Of a DNA stretch of 20,420 bases, positions 5,388 through 19,906 are shown piece after piece. Position numbers and translations under genes: made by a program. Position 1 is the first letter of the stretch; each line of letters opens with the position of its first letter. The notes under the pieces are model-generated. The model saw only the letters and a program-made list of their open reading frames with translations, was not told the DNA's origin and searched no databases. Origin of the DNA: a virus; the IMG/VR virus record IMGVR_UViG_3300007735_000451, positions 1 through 20,420 of that record; one strand, given 5' to 3'.

Positions 5388-5801
5388 ATGCCACTATTAG
5401 GAAATGATACAGACGGCGGCGTAACCCGCAAGCGTCTGGAAACTTGGGTAGCCAAGGAAGAAAAGGTAACAGTTGTTGCAGCAACCGATGCAGCAACAAC
5501 ACAATCAGCAGCCACGCTCGCAGCCGCAGGAGAAGTCATTTACACGATGACCCCAACAGCTGCTCGTGCCCTCACAACACCAACAGGTGCACAGTTGGGC
5601 GCAGCATTCACAGATGAAGCAGCTGGAACTTCTTTCAAGTTCTCAGTTGTTAATCTTGCTGCAGCAACACATGCAATTACCCTTACAGCTGGCGCTTCTG
5701 GTGTCACGCTTGTAGGTAGTGCAACGATTGCACATGCCAGCTCGGCATCATTCATTGGTGTGTTTACAGCTGCAGATACGGTAGTTATCTACCGCAAGTA
5801 A
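5388..5801 (+). CDS. Putative head decoration / fibre-like protein
   Basis: 137 residues from ATG 5388 with a strong AAGGAG nearby upstream. After a short polar N-terminus the protein is Ala/Thr/Ser/Val-rich with alternating strands: AARALTTPTGAQLGAAF, SFKFSVVNLA, HAITLTAG, GVTLVG and ADTVVIYRK. This beta-sandwich-like module (a TP-AARxLTTPT start and a FT-x-VxIYR end) recurs in phage capsid decoration and head-fibre proteins. The location right behind the capsid gene and similar optimised codon use suggest a highly expressed capsid surface protein. Decoration role is inference. The gene ends six bases before a 14 bp intergenic hairpin. Confidence 0.75.
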   Translation: MPLLGNDTDGGVTRKRLETWVAKEEKVTVVAATDAATTQSAATLAAAGEVIYTMTPTAARALTTPTGAQLGAAFTDEAAGTSFKFSVVNLAAATHAITLTAGASGVTLVGSATIAHASSASFIGVFTAADTVVIYRK

Positions 5802-5807
5802 TTGCTA

Positions 5808-5842
5808 TATTGGGTAAGGGGATAAAAGCCCCTTACCCAATA
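5808..5842 (+). terminator. Long perfect intergenic hairpin after the capsid/decoration genes
   Basis: Arms 5808-5821 (TATTGGGTAAGGGG) and 5829-5842 pair over 14 bp without mismatch around a 7 nt loop ATAAAAG. It starts six bases after the decoration gene stop and ends nine bases before the next AAAGGAG. No U-run follows, so a full intrinsic terminator is doubtful; a leaky terminator, an RNase processing site or a 3' stabiliser for the abundant capsid mRNA all fit. The structure would also form on the minus strand. Confidence 0.6.
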
Positions 5843-6202: not shown

Positions 6203-6418
6203 ATGAAGAACGCAATGTTGTCTCACGAATATTACGGAACCCCGATACCAGGCATACGTCCTGCGGGAGAAGTTCCAGGTTCCAAACCAGCCCCAGCTAG
6301 TGGACCCTATCTTGGTAGAGGCAATTTCTGTGCCGCCAATGACGACACCTGTGAAGGGAGAAAAGCCAAAGGCACCGATTACTGCATGGGGCACTTGCGT
6401 AGTAGGGGAGAAGCCTAA
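6203..6418 (+). CDS. Cys/His microprotein (C-x6-C-x10-C-x2-H)
   Basis: 71 residues. ATG 6203 has AAAAGGA at 6187-6193 (spacing 9); a TTG at 6200 is possible. The first half is Pro/Gly-rich and looks unstructured (GIRPAGEVPGSKPAPASGP). The second half holds a compact C-x6-C-x10-C-x2-H pattern (FCAANDDTC ... DYCMGHLRS), with the right residues to bind one zinc ion. Small proteins with this NDDTC...YCxGH pattern are familiar from phage structural regions but have no known function that I can name. The stop overlaps the next start (TAATG at 6416-6420), which couples it to the adaptor gene and hints at a role in head-tail joining. Confidence 0.7.
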   Translation: MKNAMLSHEYYGTPIPGIRPAGEVPGSKPAPASGPYLGRGNFCAANDDTCEGRKAKGTDYCMGHLRSRGEA

Positions 6419-7113
6419 TGACAATGAGCCTTGCCGATGTGCGAACTATGGTTCGCGACATCTCGGACCTTGACACCACAGACGTTCCTAACAGCATTAT
6501 TGACAACGCTGTCAAAGAGGCGTTCCAACGCATTGTTGCGTTAGAACGCCGATATCCCAAATATCAAGAAACATATACTTTTAACACAGTAGCCAATCAG
6601 CGTCCGTACACAATATCTGCAATTGGCGATATCAGAGAAATCATTTCGCTTGTGGACACATCGTCGTCTGGCGCAAGACTGACGATGATTCCTTACGACA
6701 ACGCAGAAGAAATCTGGTTGGGTAATACAGATACGGCTTCGCGCCCATATTTTTATGCTGTGTGGGATAGTGCTTTGCATCTGTATCCAAAACCTGATGG
6801 TATTTATAGCATTACTGTGCGCGCGTACAGAAACCCTGTCTACACATGGTTAACCAACACATCTGAGGCAATTGACCTTGATGAATGGTTTCATGTATTG
6901 CTTGCCTACTTTGCTTTGGCTCGTGTTTATCAACGCCAAGAAGACCCAGAGCTTTCACAGATGTATATGCGCTCATTTGAAGAAGGCGTAGCCATGGCTC
7001 GCCGTGACTTGATGAAGACCCCTAGCGCACGTCCGTTGCTGTTGTCTGGTGGCAGACAGTACCCAACGATGAAGCGTTGGTTGCAAACTCTTGGTGCGAC
7101 GTTAGGTAACTAA
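6418..7113 (+). CDS. Head-tail adaptor (connector) protein
   Basis: 231 residues from the ATG of a TAATG overlap; GGGGAG at 6405-6410 gives spacing 7, so 6418 is preferred over the in-frame ATG at 6424. In podoviruses this protein binds under the portal and bridges to the tail nozzle. Seen: N-terminal helices (LADVRTMVRDISDL, IDNAVKEAFQRIVALERRYP), a strand-rich middle with RPYFYAVWDSALHLYPKP, and a C-terminal helical pair beginning LDEWFHVLLAYFALARVYQRQEDPE with a repeated Tyr/Phe pattern. This order (helix, beta insertion ending in xLxLxPxP, then W..LLAY..A) is typical of gp6/tail-tubular-A-like adaptors. Family placement is by pattern, not by alignment. Two 11 bp hairpins lie in its coding sequence. 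Confidence 0.78.
   Translation: MTMSLADVRTMVRDISDLDTTDVPNSIIDNAVKEAFQRIVALERRYPKYQETYTFNTVANQRPYTISAIGDIREIISLVDTSSSGARLTMIPYDNAEEIWLGNTDTASRPYFYAVWDSALHLYPKPDGIYSITVRAYRNPVYTWLTNTSEAIDLDEWFHVLLAYFALARVYQRQEDPELSQMYMRSFEEGVAMARRDLMKTPSARPLLLSGGRQYPTMKRWLQTLGATLGN
6436..6462 (+). other. Intragenic hairpin close to the adaptor start codon
   Basis: GATGT + GCGAAC (6436-6446) pair with GTTCGC + ACATC (6451-6462), 11 bp with one bulged G (6457) and a TATG loop. It begins 18 bases after the start codon. No terminator U-tract. Confidence 0.55.
6659..6687 (+). other. Intragenic hairpin in the adaptor gene
   Basis: CATCGTCGTCT (6659-6669) pairs with AGAC and GACGATG (6676-6687), 11 bp with one bulged T at 6680 and a 6 nt loop. 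Same architecture as the hairpin at 6436 (11 bp, single bulge) but unrelated sequence. Confidence 0.55.
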
Positions 7114-8720
7114 TGGCACAGATTCTTCTTGAGCGTTACGACGATTTTACTGGCGGCTTGAATCTTCGTGCCGACCAATTTTTGTTGGCCAGGAATGAAT
7201 CGCCTGACATGTTGAACGTTGAAGTTGACCCTAGTGGTGGTGTGTTTAGTCGTGGTGCTATGCAAAGAATAAACAGTACCGCTGTGTCAGGTACTTGGGC
7301 TCCTGATAAGTTGCATGCGTTTTATGGTGCTGTACCAACAATTATGTTGGCAAACAGCACAAAGGTTTATCGTTCTACCGGCACAAACTTTTCCACTTTA
7401 CAGTTTTCGTCTGGCAATGACATTGCTACAACGAATGCGCATGGCGCATCGTTTTCTAATTGGGGCGACACTCTTTACATCAGCACAGGAGCCTCTGCAA
7501 CGGCGGGATACAAGTGGAAAACAACGAACACATACGCAACAGCCTTAACCGCTTCTGGGCCTACCTGGCAAGCTTACGTAAGCCCTGTGGGCGGTTATAT
7601 GCCCAAAGCCGAACACAACATTGTTCATGCCAACAAAATGTTCGTAGCCAATACAAGGGAAGATGGCGTAAATTACCCTGACAGATTGCGTTGGTCGCAC
7701 GAGGGTTTGCCTGAGGATTGGATGGCAGATGACTTTATTGATTTCAAAGGTGGCGGTAGTGGTATTAACGGCTTGGCTGTTGTGCAGGGCCAGTTAGTTA
7801 TTTTTAAAACCAATGCAATCTATTTATTGGTTGGTACCGAATCTGACAATTTTAATGTTGTTGAACTAACAGCAACCCTTGGTTGCTCTAGCCGCAACAG
7901 CATCGCTGTTGCGGAACAGGGTGTGTTTTTTTATTCAACACCTGAGGGTTTGTTTTATTATGATGGCTCTGTTGTTAGAGATGTTTTTGACCAATTGCGA
8001 CCAATGGTTGACGACAAAGAATTGTCTACGTTAAGCACAGAACCTTTTAGCGTTTCTTATGTTGGTCGCCGTGTTTGGTTGTCGTTGCCTTACGACCCTG
8101 ATGGTTTGGCTACTGCCCCTACCGCCAGTTTTGTGTACGACCCAACTATTGGCGCCAAGGGTGCTTATATGAAGTTTGCCACCCATGACGGCAAAGGCGT
8201 CATTGGTGGCATTAACTGGACTGATTCAAACAACGAAAATTTAAGATTGTTTATTCACCCAACACAGGCGTATGTGTTGAAGGTTGATATGTACGACGAA
8301 GAACAAGACAACATTAATGGCACACCAGCCGGTTTTGTTTCGTTTTATCGCACAGGTTGGATTGATGGCAGAACTTATGCCCAGAAAAAAATGTTTCGTC
8401 GTCCAGACATAGCGTTCAAACAAGTTGACACACAACGCACAATCAATGTCAAAGTGTTCCATAATTATGAAGAATCATCTGGTTCTGAACGCAAACAATT
8501 TAATGCAATTCTTGGCGCTTCTGGCGTGGGTATGCAATGGGGCGTAGATAACTGGGGTACAGGTTTGTGGGGCAAAAAATCTGTTGGTGTGCAAATTTTG
8601 AATGGTTCTAATCTTGGGTTTGCTCGTTCAGTGCAACTTTTATTTACTGGACCGCTTTCTCAAGACTGGGGTTTTGACTCTATCGCTATCAAATACAACA
8701 ACCGAAAGATGACTGGATAA
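7113..8720 (+). CDS. Tail nozzle-type structural protein (beta-rich)
   Basis: 535 residues, starting at a TAATG overlap. The N-terminus (RYDDFTGGLNLRADQFLLAR, then NESPDMLNVEVDPSGGVFSRG) is the pattern of phage proteins that cap or extend the adaptor ring, of the T7 gp12 nozzle / P22 gp10 stabiliser kind: FxGGLN, then Q.SPDxLNxxxDPSGG. The rest is rich in short beta strands and turns, as in a propeller, with repeated WxD/YxxTG segments, KTNAIYLLVG, VFFYSTPEGLFYYDG and RRVWLSLPYDPDG. Its job would be to seal packaged DNA and form the tail tip. The assignment to the nozzle rather than another ring protein is inference from order and pattern. Three notable hairpins lie inside (7871, 7892, 8178). 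Confidence 0.76.
   Translation: MAQILLERYDDFTGGLNLRADQFLLARNESPDMLNVEVDPSGGVFSRGAMQRINSTAVSGTWAPDKLHAFYGAVPTIMLANSTKVYRSTGTNFSTLQFSSGNDIATTNAHGASFSNWGDTLYISTGASATAGYKWKTTNTYATALTASGPTWQAYVSPVGGYMPKAEHNIVHANKMFVANTREDGVNYPDRLRWSHEGLPEDWMADDFIDFKGGGSGINGLAVVQGQLVIFKTNAIYLLVGTESDNFNVVELTATLGCSSRNSIAVAEQGVFFYSTPEGLFYYDGSVVRDVFDQLRPMVDDKELSTLSTEPFSVSYVGRRVWLSLPYDPDGLATAPTASFVYDPTIGAKGAYMKFATHDGKGVIGGINWTDSNNENLRLFIHPTQAYVLKVDMYDEEQDNINGTPAGFVSFYRTGWIDGRTYAQKKMFRRPDIAFKQVDTQRTINVKVFHNYEESSGSERKQFNAILGASGVGMQWGVDNWGTGLWGKKSVGVQILNGSNLGFARSVQLLFTGPLSQDWGFDSIAIKYNNRKMTG
7871..7914 (+). other. Two adjacent intragenic hairpins
   Basis: AGCAACC-CTT-GGTTGCT (7871-7887, 7 bp) is followed four bases later by CCGCAACAGC-ATC-GCTGTTGCGG (7892-7914), a perfect 10 bp stem with a 3 nt loop. 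Both are within the nozzle gene and code for ordinary residues. Confidence 0.55.
8178..8210 (+). other. Intragenic hairpin in the nozzle gene
   Basis: GCCACC + ATGACG (8178-8190) pair with CGTCAT + GGTGGC (8198-8210): 12 pairs, one C-T mismatch, 7 nt loop. No U-tract. Confidence 0.5.
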
Positions 8721-9043
8721 TGGCTCTTACAGTACCTTACTCATTTACCAATGGAACTATTGCTGAGGCTGGTGAGGTTAACAGCAACTTTACTGCTATC
8801 AAAACTTTTGTTGATGCGTTGCAAAACGGCACAGGTTTTGATGCTGGCGCTATCGGCACAACCGATATCGCCAACGATGCAGTTACTGCTGACAAACTTG
8901 CCGACACAGCTGTTACTCCTGGTTCGTACACAACAGCCAATATTACGGTAGATGCGCAAGGTCGTTTAACGGCAGCATCGTCGGGCACAAGTGTTACTGG
9001 CGATAGCGACCAAGTTGTGTTGGGTTCGCAGGTGTTTGGCTAA
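8720..9043 (+). CDS. Tail fibre base / fibre-like protein
   Basis: 107 residues, coupled by TAATG to the nozzle gene. The N-terminus (VPYSFTNGTIAEAGEVNSNF, then TAIKTFVDAL) is a widespread phage motif that marks fibre and head-fibre proteins, where a short FxNGTxADAxxVNxNF strand-helix anchors the fibre. The middle has repeating DAGAIGTTDIANDAVTADKLAD units, which form a triple-stranded fibre shaft, then SYTTANITVDAQGRLTAASSG, a very common receptor-proximal fibre repeat. The protein is short and lacks a recognisable receptor-binding head, so it may be an anchor or a neck whisker; a larger receptor-binding protein is not visible in this window. Confidence 0.8.
   Translation: MALTVPYSFTNGTIAEAGEVNSNFTAIKTFVDALQNGTGFDAGAIGTTDIANDAVTADKLADTAVTPGSYTTANITVDAQGRLTAASSGTSVTGDSDQVVLGSQVFG
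8845..8873 (+). other. Intragenic hairpin in the fibre gene
   Basis: TGGCG + TATCGG (8845-8856) pair with CCGATA + CGCCA (8862-8873): 11 pairs with one C-T mismatch and a CACAA loop. Confidence 0.5.
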
Positions 9044-9216
9044 TGAGAACTTGGGCCAATCCGATTGTGAATGCTTTGAAGACAGATGACGCTGTTTCCT
9101 TGCAGCAAATTTTTTCTTCGTTGTCACAAGAGATTGGTCGCATGTATGAGGAAATCGAAAAGTTGAAAATTGAAGTTAATAAAAATAATCGCAAAGATTA
9201 TCAAAGGATTAGATAA
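9043..9216 (+). CDS. Coiled-coil microprotein (57 aa)
   Basis: 57 residues, bracketed by TAATG overlaps on both sides (9041-9045 and 9214-9218), which is strong evidence that it is real. Sequence begins MRTWANPIVNALKTDDAVSL and continues with a helix QQIFSSLSQEIGRMYEEIEKL and a basic end. The hydrophobic spacing (L, I, L, I, M, I, L, I) suggests a short coiled coil. Function is unknown; a bridging or chaperone role between fibre and internal virion proteins is only a guess from position. Confidence 0.72.
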   Translation: MRTWANPIVNALKTDDAVSLQQIFSSLSQEIGRMYEEIEKLKIEVNKNNRKDYQRIR

Positions 9217-9650
9217 TGGCTTACAATCCAGCTGACTACGAAGCGCGTAGGCGCGGGTATACGCAACAATATGCTGCGACTGGTGCGATGAATGCTTACG
9301 CTAATTTTCTTGCACAACAACGTGGCAATCGTGAACGTCAAGGAATTATGGAACAGTACAACAAAGCCCAACCGCAGGTTGTGGCTGGTTATTCTCGTCG
9401 TGGGATGGTTGGTCCCAATGTTCGTTCTGGTTTGTTTGCGCGTGGTTTACAAGATTTTGCAAAACAACGCGCTCGTACTTTTTCGGAGTTTGACCAAGGT
9501 TTACAAGAACAACAACGAGCTTACGATTTGGGTGAGGCTCAACGTCTTGAGGCATTTAAGAATCAGTTAGCAGATATGGAATCAGAAAAAGCACAAACTA
9601 TTGCTGAGGCTGCACGTCAGCTTTATCAAAGAAGGGTTGGAATGGTCTAA
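9216..9650 (+). CDS. Helical protein, probable minor virion protein
   Basis: 144 residues, ATG in a TAATG overlap with AAAGGA (9203-9208) at spacing 7. Tyr/Arg/Gln-rich and almost entirely helical by eye: YEARRRGYTQQYAATGAMN, then FLAQQRGNRERQGIMEQYNK, then a glycine-arginine turn (GYSRRGMVGPNVRSGLFARG) and a long Gln/Glu/Ala helix (SEFDQGLQEQQRAYDLGEAQ). The composition resembles small internal virion proteins that lie before the large ejection proteins in podoviruses. I do not recognise a named family. It ends in a TAATG with the next gene. Confidence 0.68.
   Translation: MAYNPADYEARRRGYTQQYAATGAMNAYANFLAQQRGNRERQGIMEQYNKAQPQVVAGYSRRGMVGPNVRSGLFARGLQDFAKQRARTFSEFDQGLQEQQRAYDLGEAQRLEAFKNQLADMESEKAQTIAEAARQLYQRRVGMV
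9365..9386 (+). other. Intragenic hairpin
   Basis: AGCC + CAACC (9365-9373) pair with GGTTG + GGCT (9377-9386): 9 bp with one bulged T (9382) and a GCA loop, inside the helical protein gene. Confidence 0.45.
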
Positions 9651-10837
9651 TGGCACACGAACCGGGACACACAGGGGTATATACCCGACCAGATATTTAT
9701 GTTGGCAAAGACATTAACCCCTACACGGGTGAGAAACAGGATTTTGGTAATGTCACAAGTCAAATCCCAAGCAATAGAACAACTAGGACTAGAAGTGCAC
9801 TTGGCGATATTTCCCCAGATTTGTTTGATTACGCTTATAGCGCACCTGATTCACAAAACCAATCTTGGTTGGATTTGGCAAATATGTTATCTGGTTATCG
9901 GTCTGGGTCTGGTTCTGGTGCATCTGACAAACTTGCTCGAGATAAATTTGAGTATGAAAAACGAAAAGATGCTTTGGAAAGGGCTGCTGATTTAGAAGCA
10001 ACTGCTCTTGCGCGTGCTCGTGAAGGACGTGTTGTTTCTGGTTTAGAAAATCTTTATGGTGGTGGACAAGGAACTTTTAATCAAGGTTTTGACCGTTTGT
10101 TAAATTTAATTGGCGAACAAGGCAAAGTTTCTGAACAAGCAACTCAAGATGCTTATGGTCGTGCATTGACTGGAATTAATGAAGGTTATGATGTTGCTTC
10201 TCGTTTGGGTCAAACTGGTTTTAACGCTTTAAATCAATATCTACAAGCAAACCCAAATAATCCTTATGCAACCATGCGAGCGCAAGTTGGTTCTGCACCA
10301 GATGCTTTAAGCAACTATTTGAGTGCCTATGGTGTGTCCGATATGCCTGTGCGTGGACAGATAGAAGCAGACCAATTGCAAGCACAACAAGGTGCTGCTA
10401 ATTATCAAAACCTGATTGACGTGTTAAGCGGTGTTGCTCAACAGGGTGCTGGTTCTCGTGGTGCAGAAGCCCAAATGGCAGAATTGTTGTTTGGTACTGG
10501 TTTGGGTCAAGAGCGTGCTGGCTATCGTAGTCAAGCTGAGAACGCGCAAGCGCAGGCGCTTGCTGCGTTGCAGCAGGCTATGTTCCAGTCAAGGTTTGGT
10601 GTTGAAGGAGACCGTGCCGCTTATGCTCGCCAGTTGGCTGAATCTGTTATTAACGCTGGCGGCAATACAGGTGGTGGCAATGGTGGTGGTGTTCAGCCAA
10701 CTGTTCCAACAGTTGTTCCGCCTGCACCGGTTGAACAGTTATTGCAGGAAATTGCTGCCCGTCAACAAGCAGGCACACAGGTAGACCCTGTATTGGCTAA
10801 TACTCCATTTAACCCATTTATGCAATACGCGGTTTAG
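9650..10837 (+). CDS. Gln/Ala-rich protein, probable internal virion protein
   Basis: 395 residues, ATG in a TAATG overlap. Order: a polar N-terminus (PGHTGVYTRPDIYVGKDINP), a Ser/Gly linker (SGYRSGSGSGAS, about residues 80-92), long charged helices (KLARDKFEYEKRKDALERAA), a middle with many Gln and Ala (EADQLQAQQGAANYQN; AENAQAQALAALQQAMFQ), a Gly/Asn linker near residue 336 (GGNTGGGNGGG), a Pro/Val stretch (PTVPTVVPPAPV), and a short end. Such Gln/Ala helical proteins are typical of the DNA-ejection assembly packed in podovirus heads. No enzymatic motif was seen. Function is inferred from composition and position. Confidence 0.68.
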   Translation: MAHEPGHTGVYTRPDIYVGKDINPYTGEKQDFGNVTSQIPSNRTTRTRSALGDISPDLFDYAYSAPDSQNQSWLDLANMLSGYRSGSGSGASDKLARDKFEYEKRKDALERAADLEATALARAREGRVVSGLENLYGGGQGTFNQGFDRLLNLIGEQGKVSEQATQDAYGRALTGINEGYDVASRLGQTGFNALNQYLQANPNNPYATMRAQVGSAPDALSNYLSAYGVSDMPVRGQIEADQLQAQQGAANYQNLIDVLSGVAQQGAGSRGAEAQMAELLFGTGLGQERAGYRSQAENAQAQALAALQQAMFQSRFGVEGDRAAYARQLAESVINAGGNTGGGNGGGVQPTVPTVVPPAPVEQLLQEIAARQQAGTQVDPVLANTPFNPFMQYAV

Positions 10838-10858
10838 GTAACGAAAGGACTTATAGAC

Positions 10859-11773
10859 GTGGACCCGCTCCAACAGTTTTACCTTGCCTTGGCGCAAGCA
10901 GGACAATTTGCAGGTAAACCTGGCTCCCAATTAAATACTGGGGATATGAGTAGCATTTTTTCGCCTTATCTTGGGCTTCTGACTGGTACTTTAACTAACA
11001 CAACTCAAAGCGATGAAGATATTTATGCTTCGGTTGCACCAAATATTTTTCGTGTCAAAAACAATCCAGATGCTGACCCGATTGCTACTTCAATAGTAGA
11101 AAATCTTGAAAGTGGATTTTCTTTGCCTCAAACCCTTAGTGAACTTCGCAAAAAAGTTTCTGGTGAAGATTTCAAAGCATATCAAGATTATGCAAAAGAA
11201 GTCAGTAAAGAAATGGGCGAATTTAAGTCTGCCATTGGTAAAAGAAAAACTCCTGCTTCTGAAGCCGGTTTGCCTGAACCTGGCGCACAGTATGACCCGA
11301 CCCCATTGATGTCAAGTATTTATAGTCGTTTCATGGAGCAGGCACAACCAATAACGCCTCCAGAAAAAGTTGCCGAAACAGAAAAGTCAAAAAATAAAAA
11401 ATATATATTTGACCCTAGAAAACAACAGTATTCACGCAATCCAGATTATGTTGAACCACCATCTAAATATGTGTTCGACCCACGCAGTCAAAAATGGTCT
11501 ATGACTCCAGAGGCAAAAGAAGCTGGAAGGATTGCCAAATTGCCTAAAGAAACCAAAGAGGCACAGACTGCAAGATATGAAAAAGCCAGTGAAGCTAGAG
11601 CAAAAATAGCCGGTCAAGAAGTTGAAGATATTAAAAATGTTTTAGCTAGCGCCATGCAACGCAACAGTCTTGCTGGAAGTCCCTTCATGGATGAAATTAT
11701 GAAACGTACGATTATGAAAAGGTTAATAGAAAACCCTAAGGCAATTAGCAAACTTATTAAACCGCAAGGGTAG
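10859..11773 (+). CDS. Probable internal virion protein with FDPR repeat
   Basis: 304 residues from a GTG start at 10859; GAAAGGA (10843-10849) gives spacing 9 and no in-frame ATG fits better. Helical and polar throughout. Residues 181-217 hold an imperfect tandem repeat with 22-residue spacing: KYIFDPRKQQYS at 181 and KYVFDPRSQKWS at 203, each followed by x-x-P. The C-terminal part is basic and helical (EIMKRTIMKRLIENPKAISK). The KY[IV]FDPRxQ[xx][YW]S unit looks like a small beta hairpin or docking peptide, and I do not know it from a named family. Between the Gln/Ala-rich protein and the giant protein, it probably belongs to the same ejection/internal group. Confidence 0.68.
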   Translation: MDPLQQFYLALAQAGQFAGKPGSQLNTGDMSSIFSPYLGLLTGTLTNTTQSDEDIYASVAPNIFRVKNNPDADPIATSIVENLESGFSLPQTLSELRKKVSGEDFKAYQDYAKEVSKEMGEFKSAIGKRKTPASEAGLPEPGAQYDPTPLMSSIYSRFMEQAQPITPPEKVAETEKSKNKKYIFDPRKQQYSRNPDYVEPPSKYVFDPRSQKWSMTPEAKEAGRIAKLPKETKEAQTARYEKASEARAKIAGQEVEDIKNVLASAMQRNSLAGSPFMDEIMKRTIMKRLIENPKAISKLIKPQG

Positions 11774-11775
11774 TT

Positions 11776-14700
11776 ATGGCTAAACCGCCAATTAGCGAAG
11801 AAGATTTCTTAAAAGCATTAGGTAAAATTTCTGGTAAAAAACAAACCCAAACCACTATAGGTGGTTTGGGTAAAAGCCCACTACAAAACTATTTTGAAAC
11901 AAAAGACGCTGAAGCCGCAAAAGCGGCAGAAGCGCTAGGTGTTGCTGGCAAAATTCTTAAACCAGTTTTTAAAGCTGTTACTATTCTTGATGCTCCGAGA
12001 CGAGCAACAATTTCTGGCGTTAGGGAAATTGTGGATGTTTTGGATGCTGACCCAAACACAAATGCAAGTTGGTCAGATTTTGTTAAACAATCAAAAGATG
12101 AAACTTATGGTTTTGGCACAGCGTTCCCTATAAAAAATAAATGGGGCGGAAGAATTGTTGGATTCATAGGCGATGTGGTGTTAGACCCTTGGACATATGC
12201 AACCCTTGGTGGTGCTGTGCCCGCCAAAGCGACAATGAAATCGATAATGTCGGGTGGCAAAATTATTTCTAAGGGTGGCAAAACAAGAGAAATATTGGGT
12301 GGCATTAAATATGTGCATGGTCGCGAAGGGCGACTCGCCCTCGCGAACCTTGCAAAATCACGCATGGAAGCAATGGGCGAGGCAGGGATTAGAAACTTTA
12401 CCAAAGATGAATTTGGTAAAGTTTTTAGAGATGTTGCTGCCAAAGGCAAAAAAGCACTTCCCGGATATTTGCGTGATGATTTGGGTATTCGTGGTCCTGG
12501 TATTTATTATTTTGGTTCAAGAGTAAAACTTCCTGGTTCTGGTCCGGTTGGCGGTCTTTTAGAAAATTTGGTTACAGGCGCACGTTTAGGACTTGTAAAA
12601 AATCCTGTTGGTCAAAAAGTGATGAAGTATGTGACACCAGATGGAACATTTCAAGCAGCCTACATTGACAATCAATCCGTATTAAGAGACAGGGTTGCTT
12701 TGGCTTCTGGAACCTTAGAAAACGGAGACATCTTAACTCCGCAAGAAGCATTGAATGCTGGTGTGCGTTTGCGTATGGCGCAAAATCAACGCATAGCAAC
12801 AGCCAAAAACGATGAGTATGTTACGCAAGAAGTTATCAGAGTTGTTAATGACCCCGATATGGAAGCAAACAGATTATCTCTTACTTCTGTTTTGGAACAA
12901 GAAGGCGGTATAGAAACTGCGGACAATGTTGTTGGTCCACTTGCCCAAAAAGTAAGAAACTTTTTGGACTCAAGACTTGGTGATGCTCAGCGAAAAGCAG
13001 ACGAAGTTTCTGAAGAATACGGTGCACAATTTGCAAGAAAAAGAAATTATGTTCCGCACATGGAATCAGATGAAGCTGTTGTAGACAGACTAAAAATGGG
13101 TGAAGAAGCTTGGAAGGCAAGAACTGGTGGTGCCGCTATTGATGACAGCCACAGGTTTGCTTCTTCGTACAGAAGAAGAAGTTTAGAGCCTGGAGATAAC
13201 TTTTTTGGACACACCATAGAAAACAGACCGTACATAATTGATGAATTGAATGATATGGCAAAAAATCCTGGGCCTCTTTTGAATGACGTAACAAAACAGC
13301 CATTTGAACCATTGACTTATAATTTTTACGAAAATGACATGGTTAAAATTTTGCAAAAATATTCTCGGCACTTTGCACAGCAACAAGGATTTACTGAATA
13401 TTTGCTAACAGCAAAACGAGAAGGTGGAGATTTTTTTAGAGTTCTTGCAAAAGACGCAGAAGCAGACCCGTTGGTTGCAATTGATACTAGCAACGCTGTT
13501 GGTGAACTTACTTCTCGCGCCGTAACATCTGCTGGCAGGGTTGGTATTGAGGCAACAACTGACGTTGCTGTTCCTACACCTGCGACCATTGCGTCCGCCC
13601 CTGTTGTGTCCGAACTAGCAACGCCTTTGCCGGTTAGTCAAAATTTGGTAAATGCGATAGATGAATTTGGTTCAACACTTAATGAATTAAACAATGTGTT
13701 TGAGGTTCCACCCAAAATGTTGTCAGACATTTTGGATGGATACGAAAAAGTAAGAGACAAACTTGTTAACAATTTGACAAAAGAAGGAATTGTTGCTGAA
13801 ACAGTTTCTGGGGTGCAGGCGTTGGCTCGCGACTTACAAAGAATGGTTGAGATGGGGAACTATGTTCCCAAACGGTCAACCGTTGTTAATAGCGCTGAAG
13901 CCGGTACTCGTTTGGGATTTGACAACGTAATAGATAAAAAAACAATTAATTCTATCCAAGCATTAATAAAAAACTTGTCTATAGCTGATGCGGACACAAT
14001 TGACAAAACAATTGCGTTTGCACTTAAAGATGTTTTTAACAAAGTTGACAAACAGCTATTTGCTTCATCTGAAACAAAATTTGGAGTATTGCAGGCTTTT
14101 TACGAGAAAACTAAAAGATTAAAAAATATAAGAAGGGTAAATCTTAAAAAACCAAATTTGTCTCGAGTCGAAATTGCTAAAAATGATTTGCGTTATGGTT
14201 TTGCTTTACAAGACATGCAAATTTTTGGAAACATAATTAAAGGAATTGACGAACGAATTAAACAGTATGTCCAATTTAATTTTGGTCCGTCTATTTTAAA
14301 TCAAACCGAAATAGAAGATATTGCCGCTGAAGTAACTTTGTTGTATGTGTTTCAGACACAAAGAGAGTTGGACCGTGTTGCAAAATTGCAAAATTTGCTT
14401 CAAAGAACAGTTACTGACGAAGGTGGTCTTGAGGAAGAAATTGCAATAATTAAAGGATTGATTCCAGATTTGGATTTGCCTTTAAGCACGGAAGATGACC
14501 TTGCACAATTTATCCGCGTGTATCTTGGCGATGCTGTGAATGATGGTTTGTTGGAAACTCAACGCAAATTATTGAAACAAAGAGTTTTGGATTTGGAAGC
14601 TAATTCTTTTTCTGGTGTTGCTATTGAAACGGTTTTGGGTCGGGAACCCAAAACCGCTTTAGAGATAAGCAATGAAGTAATAAAGATTAAAAAGATTGTA

Positions 14701-17700
14701 AACGTAAGAGCAACAAAAGTTAATACGGAAAGCCGTCGTGCGGCACAGCTAAAAAAGTATCCACAAAATGAACAAAAATTATTTAACGCACACTTGCAAC
14801 AATTGGAAACAAGAAAAAAAGATATTATAAAACGTCAGGAAAAAATTCTTGCAAGACAAAGAGAAGTTAAAAGAATTCAAGTAGACGAAGAAAATGTTCG
14901 TACCAGTATTTTTGTAAAGATACAAAAATACATCAATGAAACAAAACTAAAAGATTGGTTTCGTCCACAGCCAATTACGGCAACGGATGCAACCTTGTCA
15001 ACAAGATTTAGAGATTTTTTCCTTGAGTCCATGCCGCAGGTTTTAGGCAAAAATAAAAGATATTCCAATCTTGATGACATGACGCAAAAGTTTGTTAATG
15101 AAAACAACCTTGCCTTTGATGTGTTGGATATTCTTTTAACCAAAAATCCAAATGCAGTAATTGATGCCGCTGATTTTCAAACAGTATTAGATATTGCGTT
15201 TTCAAATTCGGCAAGAGCTAGAAAGTTTATTGCTGAAGCTCGCAAGGTTAGTGGGCGCACAGATATAGCAAACTACGACGATTTAAAGAATTTTCTTTTT
15301 AGTGAAGCGGGTGCCTCACAGAGAACAAACAAACAAGTTGCTGATGGTTTGTTTGCGTCTTTGATGAATGATTTTACTAATGATGTGGCTGAGGTTTCTA
15401 AATTAACCGTTAATGAATTGCGTAGGGATGTAGCAATTGCCAATAGGGCAATGCTTTTGGCAGAACAAGAAATAGAAAAATTAACAAATCAATTAAACGA
15501 ATTGTTGCCTGACGAATATTTTACAAGATTTCAAAATAGTATTTTACCGGAACAATCAAGACAGGCTTTGGAAACACCAACAGAAGTTCCGTTAGCTAAT
15601 CGCATTAATCCCGAAACTGGTGAAATTATTGGGCAACAAAATTTGGCTGCCAACAAACAAATGTTGTTGGAAGAAAATGATTTCTACCCACAAGCCAAGG
15701 CCGTTTTGAACCGTATGCAAAACTTGCAACAACTTGCCAATATTGATGGCAGCATGGTTGACTGGACTTTTGGGAAAAGAATACAGTTTTTATACAATAA
15801 TCAGCCAATGTCATTTACGCCCCAAGAGTGGGATGCGTTCGTAAACCCACGCAATACTGCTTATGTTCCAAACGACAAAATACAGTACATTGTTTCACGG
15901 CTAAAAGATGAAGATTTGCGTCGCATTGTTTTGGGTGATGATTACACCGACCAAACAATACCTGACGATGAGATGTTGCAAAGGTTTGTTTCGTATGTTT
16001 CCAAAAAACAACCTGATGCTTTTGCTAGTGAACCAACTTTTCTTGCACGACAAGAAAAGATTGGCGAGGTTTGGAATAAATCGGATGCCAATAAATTTTT
16101 ATTTGAACATACCAGAGTTAAGAATTTGGCTGCTGAAGAAGCAGCTAAAAGACAACCAAAGAATGTTGTTAGCGAATTGGATAGAGAAATTAAAGGTTTG
16201 GATAATCAAATTGATTATTACACCACGGAAAGAGTTAGGACTCAAGAGTGGTGGGAAACTTACGGGGCTAGTGAAAAACCCTTGAACGCTGTTGAAATCT
16301 TGCAACTACGAACAGACAGAATTAATAGATTAACTAATTTGGAATATAGCGACGTTTATCAACTTTCGCAAAAAGAAGTTCCTCAAGGCTTGAAAGCAAG
16401 ACCAAGACCTGGTAGCCCGGATTATGACAGTTTGGTCATATTGGGTGTGCCCGAAAATATTTTAAATTCTCCAAATGTCAAAGTTTTGAATGACTGGTTG
16501 AGGGAGCATCCAGAAATTTTTAATTCAATCTTGGCTAATTTTAACGATATCCAAATCAGTGATTTGGATGAGTTTATTTTTATGACGCCCACAACTCGCG
16601 CAATGCGCGATAAACAGGTTGAGGTTTTAAGAGCAATAAAAAGAAATGGTTTGGAAACTAACCGTACACGAAACAAGAGTATTAGCAAACTTATTAGGGA
16701 TAAAGAAAGACTGTTTAGAACGCCCGAGGAAGATAAGGTTCTTGCTGACACAATCGCTAAACGAGCACAGCAGCGGGCAAGAATAGAAGAAATTAAAAAG
16801 AAACAGGCTGCTGCAAAAGTTGTTGACCAACCAAAAGAAACACCACCGCTAACAAATACAGCCTTTGATTATGCGGGCGGTTATACCAATGCTGGCAAAG
16901 GAACGCCTAATGGCGATGGCAAAGATATTGCAATGCGAAAAGTTGCCGATAGTTCAATTGTTGAGCTTGCTAATAATAAACCAAGCAGTTCGTTGACAAC
17001 CGCAACAACGCTTGGTCGAGTCAATAACAACAGCAAAATTATTATGCTTGCTAGGAATAGCGAACTTCGTAACCAACCACTAAGAGAAGCAACTGTTGCC
17101 GAAATCAAAAATGCTCATGCTCGCGGTGCAAAATTTGTTGTAGGCGACATGCCTGGTGTTGATTCACAATTTATTAATTTGCTTGATGAAATTGGGGCTA
17201 ATTATACAATTTACCATACTGGTAATACTTCAAGAATAGTTAGACCTAGAACATCCGCAGCCCAAACACAAGCCGTTGTGCCTGAATACAATCCTGACCT
17301 TCCATACCATCAACAAGTAGCCAATGTTGAACGACGAACATTGCAATCTGTGGCAGATTTACCACCTGAAAAAACAGAAACAATCAATCGTCTTGTTCAA
17401 CAATTTGATTCACAATACGATGAATTTGACAAGGTCGCACAAGCAGAGGCACTTAAAGAAGCTCAACGAACAAAGGGCGTAATAGCGTCTGATTCAACGG
17501 TTGTTGATTTTGATGCCATGGGAAGAATAAGAGATACCGAAAACATTTTGGCAAGTGTTAAAAAACGTGGAACTGCAACACCTGTGGAAGAAGTTCTTTT
17601 GGATGCAGGAACAAAAGAAGCCGAGGCAATGGTTGTTGCTTCCCGACTTCCGCAAACGGAAGTCGAGGCAAGACTAATGGATGGTTTGGTTTCCATGGCA

Positions 17701-18873
17701 AAACCAGCAACACGAACCGTTCCATTTACCGCAAGAGAAACTGGTATTGCCGACATGATAACGGAAGGATGGAAACGTCTTGGTGCAAAGTTTGACGACA
17801 TCCAAGTAAGTCCAGAGTTTTATGAACTCTGGAAAAACGCAAAATATTTTGAAGACCCAGCATTTGTGCGCCAAATGGCAAATCTTGTTGGTGGATACAC
17901 AAAATTCCATAAAGCCTACGCAACGCTGACTCCAGGTTTTCATGTTAGAAACCTCATAGGTAACGTATTTCAATATGTGTTAGCCGGTGGTCAAATAGAG
18001 CACTACCGTCGCGCTACCGAAATATTTTTTGCATGGAACGAAGCATACAGTAAAGGTGTTTCGTGGAAAAAGTTTTTACGAACTTTGACACCAGAAGAAC
18101 AGGTATTTGCAACCAAAGCCAGAACCGCAACGCTTGGTTCTGGTGGCGGTATTTATAGTGACTTGTTCCAAAGTCTTGTTCCGGGCAACAAATCTTACGA
18201 TTGGGCGCTTACTCGCGCATCTCGTAATCTTGGTCAAAAATCGGACAACATGTCACGTTTTATTCTTGGATATGATTCTGCTGTCCAGGGCATGAGCGTA
18301 GACATGACAATAGCAAGAATCAAAAGATTTTATTTTGATTACGAAGACTTATCCAAACTTGATAGAGCAATGAGACAGTTTGTGCCATTCTGGATTTGGA
18401 CTTCACGAAACCTTCCACTACAATTACAAAACATGTGGCTTAACCCGAAGCCGTATCAAATATACAATTCTGTTGTACGCAACTTGCGAGACAAAGAAAC
18501 CGAACAAGAACAACCATTGCCTATTTGGTTGCAACAAATTAATGCATTCAGAATTCCAGGGTTGCCGCTTTATGCGGCACCCGACCTTGGCTTTACGAGA
18601 GTACAGCAACAACTCGAGCAATTGGCTATGCCAAAAAAGTTTGGTTCAAACCTCAACCCATTGTTGAGGGTTCCAATTGAACAAGCATTGGGTCAAAACC
18701 TATTTAATGACGAAAAATTGGAATCGCCAAGCGACAGAATAATAAACATTGTTCAAGGAAGTTTTGTGCCTGTTGCGACTACTGACCGTTTGTTAAACTC
18801 ATACGGTGATGCTAAAATTAATGCTTGGTTAGGATTCTTTGGTTCACCAATTAAAAAAATCAAAAAGGAATAA
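11776..18873 (+). CDS. Giant internal virion / DNA-ejection-type protein (2365 aa)
   Basis: ATG 11776 follows the previous stop by two bases; AAGGG (11766-11770) is the binding site. Seen in order: residues about 124-152, a Gly-rich hydrophobic part (GGRIVGFIGDVVLDPWTYAT); NYVPH at 424-428; Lys/Glu/Gln coiled coils through most of 640-1640; about 1696-1823, a compact alpha/beta domain with GDGKDIAMRK, KIIMLARNSEL (from 1754), FVVGDMPGVDSQF (1787-1799) and YTIYHTG, resembling a Rossmann-like SLOG fold; then a conserved C-terminal part with PGFHVRNLIGNVF (about 2053-2065), FYFDYEDLSKLDRAM (2185-2199) and FVPFWIWTSRNLPLQLQ (2202-2218). That C-terminal pattern recurs in giant phage virion proteins. 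Internal ejection protein is inference from size and place. No RNA polymerase or lysozyme motif was recognised. Confidence 0.82.
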   Translation: MAKPPISEEDFLKALGKISGKKQTQTTIGGLGKSPLQNYFETKDAEAAKAAEALGVAGKILKPVFKAVTILDAPRRATISGVREIVDVLDADPNTNASWSDFVKQSKDETYGFGTAFPIKNKWGGRIVGFIGDVVLDPWTYATLGGAVPAKATMKSIMSGGKIISKGGKTREILGGIKYVHGREGRLALANLAKSRMEAMGEAGIRNFTKDEFGKVFRDVAAKGKKALPGYLRDDLGIRGPGIYYFGSRVKLPGSGPVGGLLENLVTGARLGLVKNPVGQKVMKYVTPDGTFQAAYIDNQSVLRDRVALASGTLENGDILTPQEALNAGVRLRMAQNQRIATAKNDEYVTQEVIRVVNDPDMEANRLSLTSVLEQEGGIETADNVVGPLAQKVRNFLDSRLGDAQRKADEVSEEYGAQFARKRNYVPHMESDEAVVDRLKMGEEAWKARTGGAAIDDSHRFASSYRRRSLEPGDNFFGHTIENRPYIIDELNDMAKNPGPLLNDVTKQPFEPLTYNFYENDMVKILQKYSRHFAQQQGFTEYLLTAKREGGDFFRVLAKDAEADPLVAIDTSNAVGELTSRAVTSAGRVGIEATTDVAVPTPATIASAPVVSELATPLPVSQNLVNAIDEFGSTLNELNNVFEVPPKMLSDILDGYEKVRDKLVNNLTKEGIVAETVSGVQALARDLQRMVEMGNYVPKRSTVVNSAEAGTRLGFDNVIDKKTINSIQALIKNLSIADADTIDKTIAFALKDVFNKVDKQLFASSETKFGVLQAFYEKTKRLKNIRRVNLKKPNLSRVEIAKNDLRYGFALQDMQIFGNIIKGIDERIKQYVQFNFGPSILNQTEIEDIAAEVTLLYVFQTQRELDRVAKLQNLLQRTVTDEGGLEEEIAIIKGLIPDLDLPLSTEDDLAQFIRVYLGDAVNDGLLETQRKLLKQRVLDLEANSFSGVAIETVLGREPKTALEISNEVIKIKKIVNVRATKVNTESRRAAQLKKYPQNEQKLFNAHLQQLETRKKDIIKRQEKILARQREVKRIQVDEENVRTSIFVKIQKYINETKLKDWFRPQPITATDATLSTRFRDFFLESMPQVLGKNKRYSNLDDMTQKFVNENNLAFDVLDILLTKNPNAVIDAADFQTVLDIAFSNSARARKFIAEARKVSGRTDIANYDDLKNFLFSEAGASQRTNKQVADGLFASLMNDFTNDVAEVSKLTVNELRRDVAIANRAMLLAEQEIEKLTNQLNELLPDEYFTRFQNSILPEQSRQALETPTEVPLANRINPETGEIIGQQNLAANKQMLLEENDFYPQAKAVLNRMQNLQQLANIDGSMVDWTFGKRIQFLYNNQPMSFTPQEWDAFVNPRNTAYVPNDKIQYIVSRLKDEDLRRIVLGDDYTDQTIPDDEMLQRFVSYVSKKQPDAFASEPTFLARQEKIGEVWNKSDANKFLFEHTRVKNLAAEEAAKRQPKNVVSELDREIKGLDNQIDYYTTERVRTQEWWETYGASEKPLNAVEILQLRTDRINRLTNLEYSDVYQLSQKEVPQGLKARPRPGSPDYDSLVILGVPENILNSPNVKVLNDWLREHPEIFNSILANFNDIQISDLDEFIFMTPTTRAMRDKQVEVLRAIKRNGLETNRTRNKSISKLIRDKERLFRTPEEDKVLADTIAKRAQQRARIEEIKKKQAAAKVVDQPKETPPLTNTAFDYAGGYTNAGKGTPNGDGKDIAMRKVADSSIVELANNKPSSSLTTATTLGRVNNNSKIIMLARNSELRNQPLREATVAEIKNAHARGAKFVVGDMPGVDSQFINLLDEIGANYTIYHTGNTSRIVRPRTSAAQTQAVVPEYNPDLPYHQQVANVERRTLQSVADLPPEKTETINRLVQQFDSQYDEFDKVAQAEALKEAQRTKGVIASDSTVVDFDAMGRIRDTENILASVKKRGTATPVEEVLLDAGTKEAEAMVVASRLPQTEVEARLMDGLVSMAKPATRTVPFTARETGIADMITEGWKRLGAKFDDIQVSPEFYELWKNAKYFEDPAFVRQMANLVGGYTKFHKAYATLTPGFHVRNLIGNVFQYVLAGGQIEHYRRATEIFFAWNEAYSKGVSWKKFLRTLTPEEQVFATKARTATLGSGGGIYSDLFQSLVPGNKSYDWALTRASRNLGQKSDNMSRFILGYDSAVQGMSVDMTIARIKRFYFDYEDLSKLDRAMRQFVPFWIWTSRNLPLQLQNMWLNPKPYQIYNSVVRNLRDKETEQEQPLPIWLQQINAFRIPGLPLYAAPDLGFTRVQQQLEQLAMPKKFGSNLNPLLRVPIEQALGQNLFNDEKLESPSDRIINIVQGSFVPVATTDRLLNSYGDAKINAWLGFFGSPIKKIKKE
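11845..11871 (+). other. Perfect 11 bp intragenic hairpin at the start of the giant gene
   Basis: ACCCAAACCAC (11845-11855) pairs without mismatch with GTGGTTTGGGT (11861-11871) around TATAG. It begins 69 bases into the gene. Confidence 0.6.
12321..12346 (+). other. GC-rich intragenic hairpin
   Basis: TCGCGA + GGGCG (12321-12332) pair with CGCCC + TCGCGA (12336-12346): 11 bp, one bulged A (12327), ACT loop. GC-rich within an A-rich stretch. Confidence 0.55.
12390..12427 (+). other. Longest intragenic hairpin (13 bp perfect, up to 16 pairs)
   Basis: AAACTTTACCAAA (12393-12405) pairs perfectly with TTTGGTAAAGTTT (12412-12424) around a GATGAA loop. A G-U pair and two A-T pairs extend it to 12390-12427. 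The right arm ends in GTTTTTA, so the T-run is part of the stem; that resembles an intrinsic terminator but sits inside a 7 kb open frame. Confidence 0.6.
14630..14656 (+). other. Perfect 11 bp intragenic hairpin
   Basis: CGGTTTTGGGT (14630-14640) pairs without mismatch with ACCCAAAACCG (14646-14656) around CGGGA. Same dimensions (11-5-11) as the hairpin at 11845 and shares its ACCCAAA core. Confidence 0.6.
14906..14931 (+). other. Perfect 11 bp AT-rich intragenic hairpin
   Basis: GTATTTTTGTA (14906-14916) pairs without mismatch with TACAAAAATAC (14921-14931) around an AAGA tetraloop, in a coiled-coil-coding part of the giant gene. Confidence 0.55.
16980..17016 (+). other. Long double-bulged hairpin within the SLOG-like domain coding region
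   Basis: Left arm 16980-16995 (ACCAAGC, bulge A, GTT, bulge C, GTTG) pairs with 17003-17016 (CAACAACGCTTGGT): 14 bp with two single-base bulges and a 7 nt loop. Confidence 0.5.
17644..17665 (+). other. Perfect 9 bp intragenic hairpin
   Basis: CGACTTCCG (17644-17652) and CGGAAGTCG (17657-17665) flank a CAAA loop. No U-tract follows. Confidence 0.5.
17811..17833 (+). other. Perfect 9 bp intragenic hairpin
   Basis: TCCAGAGTT (17811-17819) and AACTCTGGA (17825-17833) flank a TTATG loop, in the C-terminal part of the giant gene. Confidence 0.5.
18559..18582 (+). other. Intragenic hairpin with one bulge
   Basis: GGGT + GCCGC (18559-18568) pair with GCGGC + ACCC (18574-18582): 9 bp, bulged T at 18563, TTTAT loop. 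Confidence 0.45.
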
Positions 18874-18874
18874 T

Positions 18875-19375
18875 ATGAGAGCAAAAAAAACATATACAGG
18901 AAACAAAGATGGCGTCGCCGCAGGCGAACGCCCAGGCTTAACGGAACTGGTTAAGCACCTTGTTTATTTAAGCGAAGGTGCATTGTGGAACAACGGCACC
19001 TTCGTAAACAGGCCCAAGAGGGGCTCTGAAAGCCTCTCTGTGCACGCTACAGGGCGTGCTGTGGACCTCAGTTATCGTAAAACCCCGACTAAAGGCAAAC
19101 GAAATGGTAGAGAAGTTGCCGCACACATCGCAGATTTTCTTGTTCGTCATTCAGATGAATTAGGCATTGAGATGGTGTTGGACTATTTCCCAGAACCACA
19201 CGGTCGTGGCTACAACTGGACCCGTGGCACTTGGCAGAAATACACTAAGCCAACAATACACGGTGCGCCAGGTGGTGATTGGTTGCATGTTGAGTTGAGT
19301 CCAGCTTGGGCTGACTCTAAGCAGAAGGTTCGGGATTCGTTTCTGAAGATATTTCCGCAGACTCAAATTTTGTAA
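18875..19375 (+). CDS. M15-type peptidoglycan peptidase, endolysin candidate
   Basis: 166 residues from ATG 18875; AAAAAGGA (18862-18869) is six bases upstream. An in-frame TTG at 18839 would run inside the giant gene and is rejected. Key residues match zinc D-Ala/LAS-type peptidases: SVHATGRAVDL with H57 and D64 as metal ligands (H-x6-D), and GGDWLHVEL with H138 as third ligand and D135 in the catalytic-acid region. The stretch ending in ...MVLDYFPEPHGRGYNW and YTKPTIHGAPGGDW is a pattern seen in actinophage-like lysins. No signal peptide and no separate cell-wall-binding domain are visible, so export would need the holin. It probably cleaves peptide cross-links in the cell wall at lysis; a virion-associated role is the alternative. 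It overlaps the convergent minus-strand gene by 59 bases. Confidence 0.8.
   Translation: MRAKKTYTGNKDGVAAGERPGLTELVKHLVYLSEGALWNNGTFVNRPKRGSESLSVHATGRAVDLSYRKTPTKGKRNGREVAAHIADFLVRHSDELGIEMVLDYFPEPHGRGYNWTRGTWQKYTKPTIHGAPGGDWLHVELSPAWADSKQKVRDSFLKIFPQTQIL
18911..19059 (+). other. Run of five consecutive hairpins in the lysin gene
   Basis: Going 5' to 3': 18911-18932 (9 bp, one bulge, GCA loop); 18936-18956 (GCTTAAC/GTTAAGC, 7 bp, 7 nt loop); 18973-19004 (CGAAGGTGC/GCACCTTCG, 9 bp, with an inner 4 bp TTGT/ACAA helix); 19017-19039 (9 pairs including one G-U, 5 nt loop); 19042-19059 (GCACGC/GCGTGC, 6 bp). The gaps between them are 2-16 bases. Confidence 0.55.
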
Positions 19376-19766
19376 ATGCTTTATCTAGTTCATTAATTGT
19401 TTTTGCATTTAAAACTTCGGTTATAAATTTAGACCCTTCATCATCAAAATTATAAACTTCGGGACGTTGAGCAAACTTGCCTTGCAAGTATTGCTCAAAT
19501 TCTTCTTTGTCTCCGTAAATTTTAGCTTCGCTTAAAATTTGCAAAGGCGCTACGTACACAACCATGTGGTACGGAATTGCCATAATGCCACAGCAGTTAC
19601 TGCCATCTTGGTCAATTGTTGAAGCAATGTGAACATAGTCGTTGTTGTAGGCAACAATATAACCAATAGAAATGTTTGGTGTTTCGGGCTTGGGGTTATA
19701 ATGCTCAATACTCATCCATTCGTCTTCCGAGTATGCGTCGTCCCAAAGTACAATTACTGGCCTCAT
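19317..19766 (-). CDS. Phage protein of unknown function, N-terminal VLWDDAYSEDEW motif
   Basis: 149 residues. The start at 19766 is chosen because its ATG overlaps the TGA of the upstream small gene (ATGA); an in-frame ATG six codons earlier (19784) would overlap that gene more and is less likely. The N-terminal half (PVIVLWDDAYSEDEWM, then ISIGYIVAYNNDYVHIAST and CGIMAIPYHMVVYVAPL) is a beta-rich pattern I recognise as a common small phage protein family (a W-x-DA-x-S start, GYxV-x-DYVxxAS, then IPxxxV), function unknown. The C-terminal part is helical and acidic and ends in an overlap with the lysin 3' end. Confidence 0.75.
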   Translation of the reverse strand: MRPVIVLWDDAYSEDEWMSIEHYNPKPETPNISIGYIVAYNNDYVHIASTIDQDGSNCCGIMAIPYHMVVYVAPLQILSEAKIYGDKEEFEQYLQGKFAQRPEVYNFDDEGSKFITEVLNAKTINELDKAFTKFESAEISSETNPEPSA

Positions 19767-19906
19767 TGTGGTTCTCTTTTCCATAGTTCTTGTTGTGCAA
19801 CGCGAAGCTCTGCTCGCATTGCTTCCAACATTAATTCCAGTTCTTCTACTCGGTCGCGAAGGTAGCGTTCCGTTTCTGCTTGCGTTTCTGACAGTTCATT
19901 TTGCAT
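19763..19906 (-). CDS. Coiled-coil microprotein (47 aa)
   Basis: 47 residues, ATG at 19906, TGA at 19763-19765. It overlaps the upstream gene by 11 bases and the downstream one by 4 (ATGA). The whole chain is one charged helix: MQNELSETQAETERYLRDRV then EELELMLEAMRAELRVAQQE, with heptad-like L/M/V spacing. AAGGG lies about ten bases before the start. Probably an oligomerising partner for a neighbour; function unknown. Confidence 0.65.
   Translation of the reverse strand: MQNELSETQAETERYLRDRVEELELMLEAMRAELRVAQQELWKREPQ

Follow-up and report, generated by a model that had tools for sequence, protein, structure and literature searches.

Short perfect hairpins in excess within the genes of a freshwater phage group, most likely a mutational signature

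The virion RNA polymerase of bacteriophage N4 uses hairpin promoters, which are DNA hairpins with short stems and 3-nt loops. In prokaryotic coding DNA, short inverted repeats have been found above expectation, with strong differences between lineages, and Ladoukakis and Eyre-Walker (cited in PMC4060949) ascribed these repeats to sequence-directed mutagenesis. Template switching is a documented process in E. coli (PMC7202029), creates and maintains RNA hairpins (PMC8794818) and occurs in the coding genes of yeast (PMC8604942). Palindromes in the mitochondrial coding sequences of nematomorphs were read by their authors as possible products of conversion or template switching, with no function needed (PMC6649704). 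Here we analyse the hairpins within the genes of an IMG/VR virus contig, IMGVR_UViG_3300007735_000451 (20,420 bases, hereafter the window), whose + strand carries genes for terminase, portal, scaffold, capsid, internal virion protein-like and tail proteins. In the literature that our search covered, which was partial, we found no report of such a hairpin excess in phages.

The window resembles N4 in that both are podoviruses with a giant virion protein and short DNA hairpins; however, N4 has little hairpin excess, whereas the window stems lack a common sequence and are spread throughout genes. The repeats summarised in PMC4060949, like the phage stems, are short (6–9 bp), located in protein-coding genes, above expectation and variable between lineages, but the bacterial excess is described there as small, whereas in the phage lineage stems of at least 9 bp exceed codon shuffles about tenfold, and single stems reach 13–16 bp. 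The nematomorph palindromes (PMC6649704) share with the phage stems that they are perfect, scattered over genes, and gained and lost between relatives. They reach 284 bp with almost no imperfect copies, whereas the phage stems are 7–16 bp long and near-perfect ones are common. As in the systems of PMC8794818 and PMC8604942, a single event in the phage case could rewrite one arm from the other and mimic compensatory change; unlike in those systems, the phage stems show no spacer inversion and imply no RNA function.

Hairpin excess and its extent

Perfect stems with loops of 3–8 nt were counted and compared with codon-preserving shuffles and with shuffles preserving both codons and dinucleotides. 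In the genes from position 6418 on, we found 11 stems of at least 9 bp, compared with 0.53 (codon-preserving) or 0.68 (codon + dinucleotide) expected, and four of at least 11 bp compared with 0.07 expected. The latter four, at 11845, 12393 (13 bp), 14630 and 14906, are all in one giant gene; a first-pass annotation made from the window sequence had placed four such stems inside genes. That annotation had also proposed a shuffle test with 1000 shuffles; in the 300 that we ran, the counts were outside the shuffle range, with no shuffle reaching the observed number of stems of at least 9 or at least 11 bp. Its statements that the stems exceed chance and that they do not form a repeat family are borne out. 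Thus, the presence of far more hairpins within genes than expected by chance is real.

The proposed restriction of the hairpins to late genes holds only in part. In the window genes before 6400, 11 stems of at least 7 bp were found compared with 2.9 by codon shuffles, a count that is within range under the stricter codon + dinucleotide shuffle. In relatives, however, the excess is genome-wide. Their opposite-strand genes contain 49 stems of at least 9 bp compared with 5.2 (codon) or 29.6 (dinucleotide) expected, and the strongest excess is in the homologs of the giant gene (88 compared with 7.0 or 10.8). The phage collection held no near DNA relative of the window, but IMG/VR provided 80 relatives with 68–100% protein identity. 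All 40 relatives longer than 9 kb were profiled, and 22 larger records were taken gene by gene. A host search among genome contigs gave no match.

With open-ended genes included, the numbers of stems of at least 9 bp (seen/codon-expected/dinucleotide-expected) were 104/8/24 in the window clade, 34/12/22 in the wider clade, 92/5/19 in MW202803-like phages, 122/10/31 and 140/21/52 in a first and a second set of loci bearing an AEP primase gene (see below), 32/32/37 in BUCT555-like phages and 0/23/12 in T7-like phages. The excess is common to the MW202803 group and some 40 related podovirus contigs from IMG/VR, on both strands; short perfect in-gene hairpins in this freshwater phage group are roughly tenfold over the codon-shuffle expectation. 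The same pipeline revealed no clear excess in lambda, T4, N4 (three stems of at least 9 bp compared with 1.2–1.4 expected), P22, HTVC010P or the BUCT555 group. Because the excess occurs in related groups and is not clear in any of the comparison phages, it is a property of the lineage. T7-like phages (L126–L202) are depleted in in-gene hairpins, with seven stems of at least 8 bp compared with 57–82 expected and none of at least 9 bp compared with 12–23.

Among inverted repeats of at least 8 bp, 388 have spacers of 3–8 nt compared with 153 expected, with a peak at 3–5 and most of the excess at 3–6; it is weak at spacers of 9–15 and absent beyond 16 (526 compared with 525 at spacers of 16–60). 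Mirror repeats are flat, with no excess. The limitation to short spacers therefore indicates the geometry of a folding hairpin rather than that of a spaced protein operator. The loops have no sequence in common, and stable tetraloops are not enriched. Stem length differs by subclade: in the window clade the stems continue beyond 10 bp, in the MW202803 group (L283–L313) they drop after 9 bp (55 stems of exactly 9 bp compared with 0 expected, and 14 of 10 bp), and in the G013 group (with L044, L353, L366, L367 and L372) there is a near-stop after 8 bp (109, 35, 1 and 2 stems of 7, 8, 9 and 10 bp, respectively). Hairpins of at least 7 bp are almost twice as dense 30–60 nt past the start codon as elsewhere in clade genes; the count for this zone (56 compared with 5.3 codon-expected) is partly inflated by related copies, e.g., of the 6436 site.

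Pairing tests and the gain and loss of stems

The tested genes of the window are on the + strand, and a structure acting in mRNA should therefore tolerate G.U pairs better than A.C mismatches. We found no such preference, and there is a small surplus of A.C over G.U. Near-perfect stems contain 60 G.U and 74 A.C, and maintained stems contain 15 and 26. In genes of certain strand, the corresponding numbers are 65 and 91 for otherwise intact stems and 81 and 105 for one-mismatch stems, and changed homologous stems show no consistent preference at any divergence. Strand mis-calling as the source of this result is excluded, as it holds in genes homologous to window proteins. Thus, the first-pass annotation's reading of the stems as selected RNA structures does not pass its main test. 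Compensatory changes do occur, with 85 of 116 doubly changed pairs remaining Watson–Crick at 80–88% flank identity; such changes are also predicted by template switching. The earlier remark that the stems lack U-tracts and are not ordinary terminators is correct overall, as terminator-like sites (a GC-rich stem plus a T-run) number 16 compared with 17 expected.

For 776 unique clade hairpins, 355 comparisons were polarised with outgroups. Gains with at least three changes had all of them in one arm in 20 of 65 cases compared with 10.2 expected (asymmetry p=0.0015), a moderate effect, with examples of 4–6 changes in one arm in G018 (26686) and L297 (6582). Single-arm losses numbered 5 of 46 compared with 8.0 expected, and these losses serve as an internal control because they would be biased as well if the two arms were under unequal constraint. 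Second codon positions account for 22.3% of the changes in gains, compared with 14.6% of those in flanks (p=1e-6) and 14.9% of those in losses (p=0.007), which is the opposite of the codon pattern expected from silent tuning of a useful structure. Genes of certain strand keep both signals (one-armed gains in 13 of 34 compared with 5.3; second-position changes in 62 of 275). Most stems turn over between relatives, with positions kept in 12.8% of cases at 70–80% identity over a background of 2.4%. Stems remain unchanged more often than displaced controls (18.6% compared with 8.0% at 80–88% identity, and 4.5% compared with 1.8% at 70–80%), and this slightly slower decay could reflect either repeated correction or weak selection.

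Origin of the hairpins

The hairpins are real and unusual, and they are most likely a mutational signature, a strong case of an already known process. In particular, they are probably, in the main, scars of DNA-level mutation by quasipalindrome correction (template switching, sequence-directed mutagenesis) that is unusually strong in one phage lineage. An inverted repeat that is imperfect and has a short spacer would fold in single-stranded DNA during replication, and the polymerase would briefly copy the opposite arm in place of the true template, such that one arm would be rewritten to match the other. A perfect stem would result, amino acid changes included. Point mutations would later break the stem, and repeated correction would re-perfect some stems, giving the appearance of covariation. 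Template switching is the agent that we infer; the excess, the short-spacer limit, the lack of a G.U preference, the one-armed second-position gains and the fast turnover are observations.

Several results weigh against this reading: (i) Typical stem lengths for each subclade are not predicted by a plain mutation model. (ii) Only a minority of events are multi-change gains, polarity was taken from the nearest outgroups rather than a full tree, and the polarised changes show no bias between 5′ and 3′ arms. (iii) Clusters of 3–4 adjacent changes are not clearly richer in templated inverted repeats than mirror controls; tests of multi-base clusters, whether or not spacers were limited, gave values only weakly above mirror controls, with no clear rise with cluster size. 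(iv) Spacer inversion in aligned homologs is not in excess (3 of 63 compared with 1 mirror control), although it is optional and expected only of interstrand template switching. (v) Hairpins are no sparser where proteins are more conserved, whereas avoidance of conserved proteins was predicted. Because the cluster, spacer-inversion, conservation and stem-length results do not fit, our confidence in template switching is moderate. Apparent loop inversions were discarded, as they look like one hairpin read from opposite strands of an open reading frame (ORF).

Selection at the RNA level, in which the stems act in mRNA through protection, RNase processing or pausing, would account for the excess over codon shuffles, the Watson–Crick compensation at 80–88% identity, the decay slower than that of controls and the strong folding of 18874–19316 (z −2.8). 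We nevertheless consider it very unlikely, given that G.U is tolerated no better than A.C, stable tetraloops are not enriched, Rfam gave no match in the window, turnover is rapid, and stems occur close to the starts of genes, where structured mRNA is as a rule avoided. Selection at the DNA level would place the function in a hairpin or cruciform used, e.g., by a phage primase, nuclease or packaging, and since DNA pairing would be read, no wobble preference would be expected. The lack of a G.U preference is consistent with this explanation, as are the slightly slower decay and the stem length typical of each subclade (the MW202803 and G013 groups), but the stems have neither sequence nor loop in common, their positions are for the most part not kept, and gains alter amino acids to a greater degree than ordinary changes, which makes such a function unlikely.

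A mixture of a mutational background with a minority of functional hairpins (5808–5842, 3475–3494 and perhaps a few more) appears quite unlikely as the general explanation. These two stems are far longer-lived than the rest, and that at 5808–5842 is located between genes and has compensatory changes, but most in-gene stems would remain unaccounted for, and some persistent sites follow from the protein sequence. That the excess is an artefact of the null model, composition or metagenome assembly is extremely improbable. Apart from the shuffles being approximate, nothing favours it, whereas the same stems occur in contigs from independent samples (L013, L014 and L016 with the window), mirror repeats are flat, and the same pipeline found no clear excess in the comparison phages and a depletion in T7.

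Replication genes offer a possible cause of the mutational process. An AEP-TOTE primase domain is present in 16 of the 17 records examined from hairpin-rich groups, the exception (G030) being a 24-kb record, and a family A DNA polymerase was found in none of these 17, nor in any of 12 clade records examined. In BUCT555-like records, the AEP domain is present in none of four and the family A polymerase in three of four. Over 180 residues, the AEP protein can be aligned with PDB entries 7nqd and 7nqf, which show a primase-polymerase associated with CRISPR. Human PrimPol is an error-prone enzyme that has a hotspot at a sequence able to form a hairpin (PMC4333378). The AEP primase was rejected as a sufficient cause, since, of six phages with distant homologs of AEP, five lack the excess and Pan1 is mildly raised; five of these six are also annotated with DNA polymerase I/A in the stretch read. 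AEP is therefore a lead rather than a result, as the distant AEP phages lack the excess and the hairpin-rich groups are mutually related. It is doubtful that the AEP primase-polymerase-like protein of the lineage, without a phage family A polymerase, drives palindromes strongly enough to reshape genes and proteins, with the enzymes setting the stem length of each subclade, or that the DNA hairpins are used, e.g., as priming sites. Host repair may equally be the cause. In L085 (11811–12692, − strand) and its homologs, the AEP-TOTE primase gene adjoins that of a DnaB-like helicase, with a PD-(D/E)XK nuclease nearby.

If template switching is indeed responsible, a known mutation process that is usually weak would here be visible by eye and would alter protein sequences. 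The group would also provide a natural system in which to ask what enzymes of replication or repair govern template switching, because strength and stem length vary between close subclades and T7-like phages show the reverse. It would also caution that neither covariation nor long perfect stems in a coding region are in themselves evidence of RNA function; the comparison of G.U with A.C separates the two.

Individual sites and gene content of the window

Nearly all stems listed in the first-pass annotation were found where it had placed them, although those at 16980–17016 and 15432–15455 are present in imperfect form. It had overlooked the in-gene 9-bp stems starting at 12945, 13712, 16037 and 16549, as well as the stems at 2565 and 5808.

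Table 1 Hairpins and selected genes of the window
Position	Strand	Feature	Remarks
2565–2585		9-bp perfect stem, loop 3	portal gene
3475–3494		8-bp perfect stem, loop 4	
5808–5842	+	14-bp perfect stem, loop 7	intergenic, downstream of ORF ending at 5801; longest in window
6418–7113	+	tail/structural protein gene, 231 aa	PHROG 399/10775; contains stems 6436–6462 and 6659–6687
6436–6462		10–11 bp stem, one bulge	
7113–8720	+	internal virion protein-like gene, 535 aa	PHROG 511; contains 7892 and 8178 stems
7892–7914		10-bp perfect stem, loop 3	
8178–8210		12-bp interrupted stem	one compensated pair in L032 (ATGAC/GTCAT to ACGAC/GTCGT)
8845–8873		11-bp stem, one mismatch	
11776–18873	+	giant virion-type gene, 2365 aa	densest in hairpins: 10 perfect stems of at least 9 bp vs 0.54–0.65 expected
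11845–11871		11-bp perfect stem, loop 5	folded model: 12 bp, loop 3
12321–12346		11-bp stem, one bulge	different perfect stem at same place in L011, L018 and L032
12390–12427		16-bp stem, loop 6	perfect 13-bp core 12393–12424
12945–12967		9-bp perfect stem, loop 5	
13712–13735		9-bp perfect stem, loop 6	
14630–14656		11-bp perfect stem, loop 5	one compensated pair in 77% relatives
14906–14931		11-bp perfect stem, loop 4	
16037–16059		9-bp perfect stem, loop 5	
16549–16569		9-bp perfect stem, loop 3	
17644–17665		9-bp perfect stem, loop 4	
17811–17833		9-bp perfect stem, loop 5	
18559–18582		9-bp stem, one bulge	
18875–19372		ORF	92% identity to G003 counterpart, itself a weak M15 peptidase match
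18911–19059		five adjacent imperfect stems in a run	start of ORF 18875–19372

Relatives retain the intergenic hairpin at 5808–5842, with compensatory changes. Unlike the in-gene stems, it is probably a genuine hairpin with a regulatory/terminator or processing role. The most persistent in-gene stem, at 3475–3494, is present in nearly all relatives at 82–90% identity and in one at 70%. At 6436–6462, the place is retained, with covariation, while the sequence changes; the position is kept at least partly because the protein motif R-T-x-V-R (CGN ACN xxx GTN CGN) forces much of the palindrome. One arm of the stem at 2565–2585 is almost invariant in relatives and the other is variable. In the comparison of 12390–12427 with L002, the 5′ arm contains all three polarised completing changes, among them ACA to AAC. 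Read on the minus strand (11871–11845), the stem at 11845 runs into a T-rich tail and could be an antisense terminator.

A Pfam search with the 2365-aa product of the giant gene gave no match. Its homologs exceed 3000 aa in some relatives, occupying up to about one quarter of a 40-kb genome, and are conserved in their N- and C-terminal regions and variable in the middle. In the relative G003, a class II glutamine amidotransferase-like gene adjoins an amidoligase-like gene (L085:17676–18677 and 18678–19799, − strand), possibly forming a pair for small-molecule or cell-wall modification.

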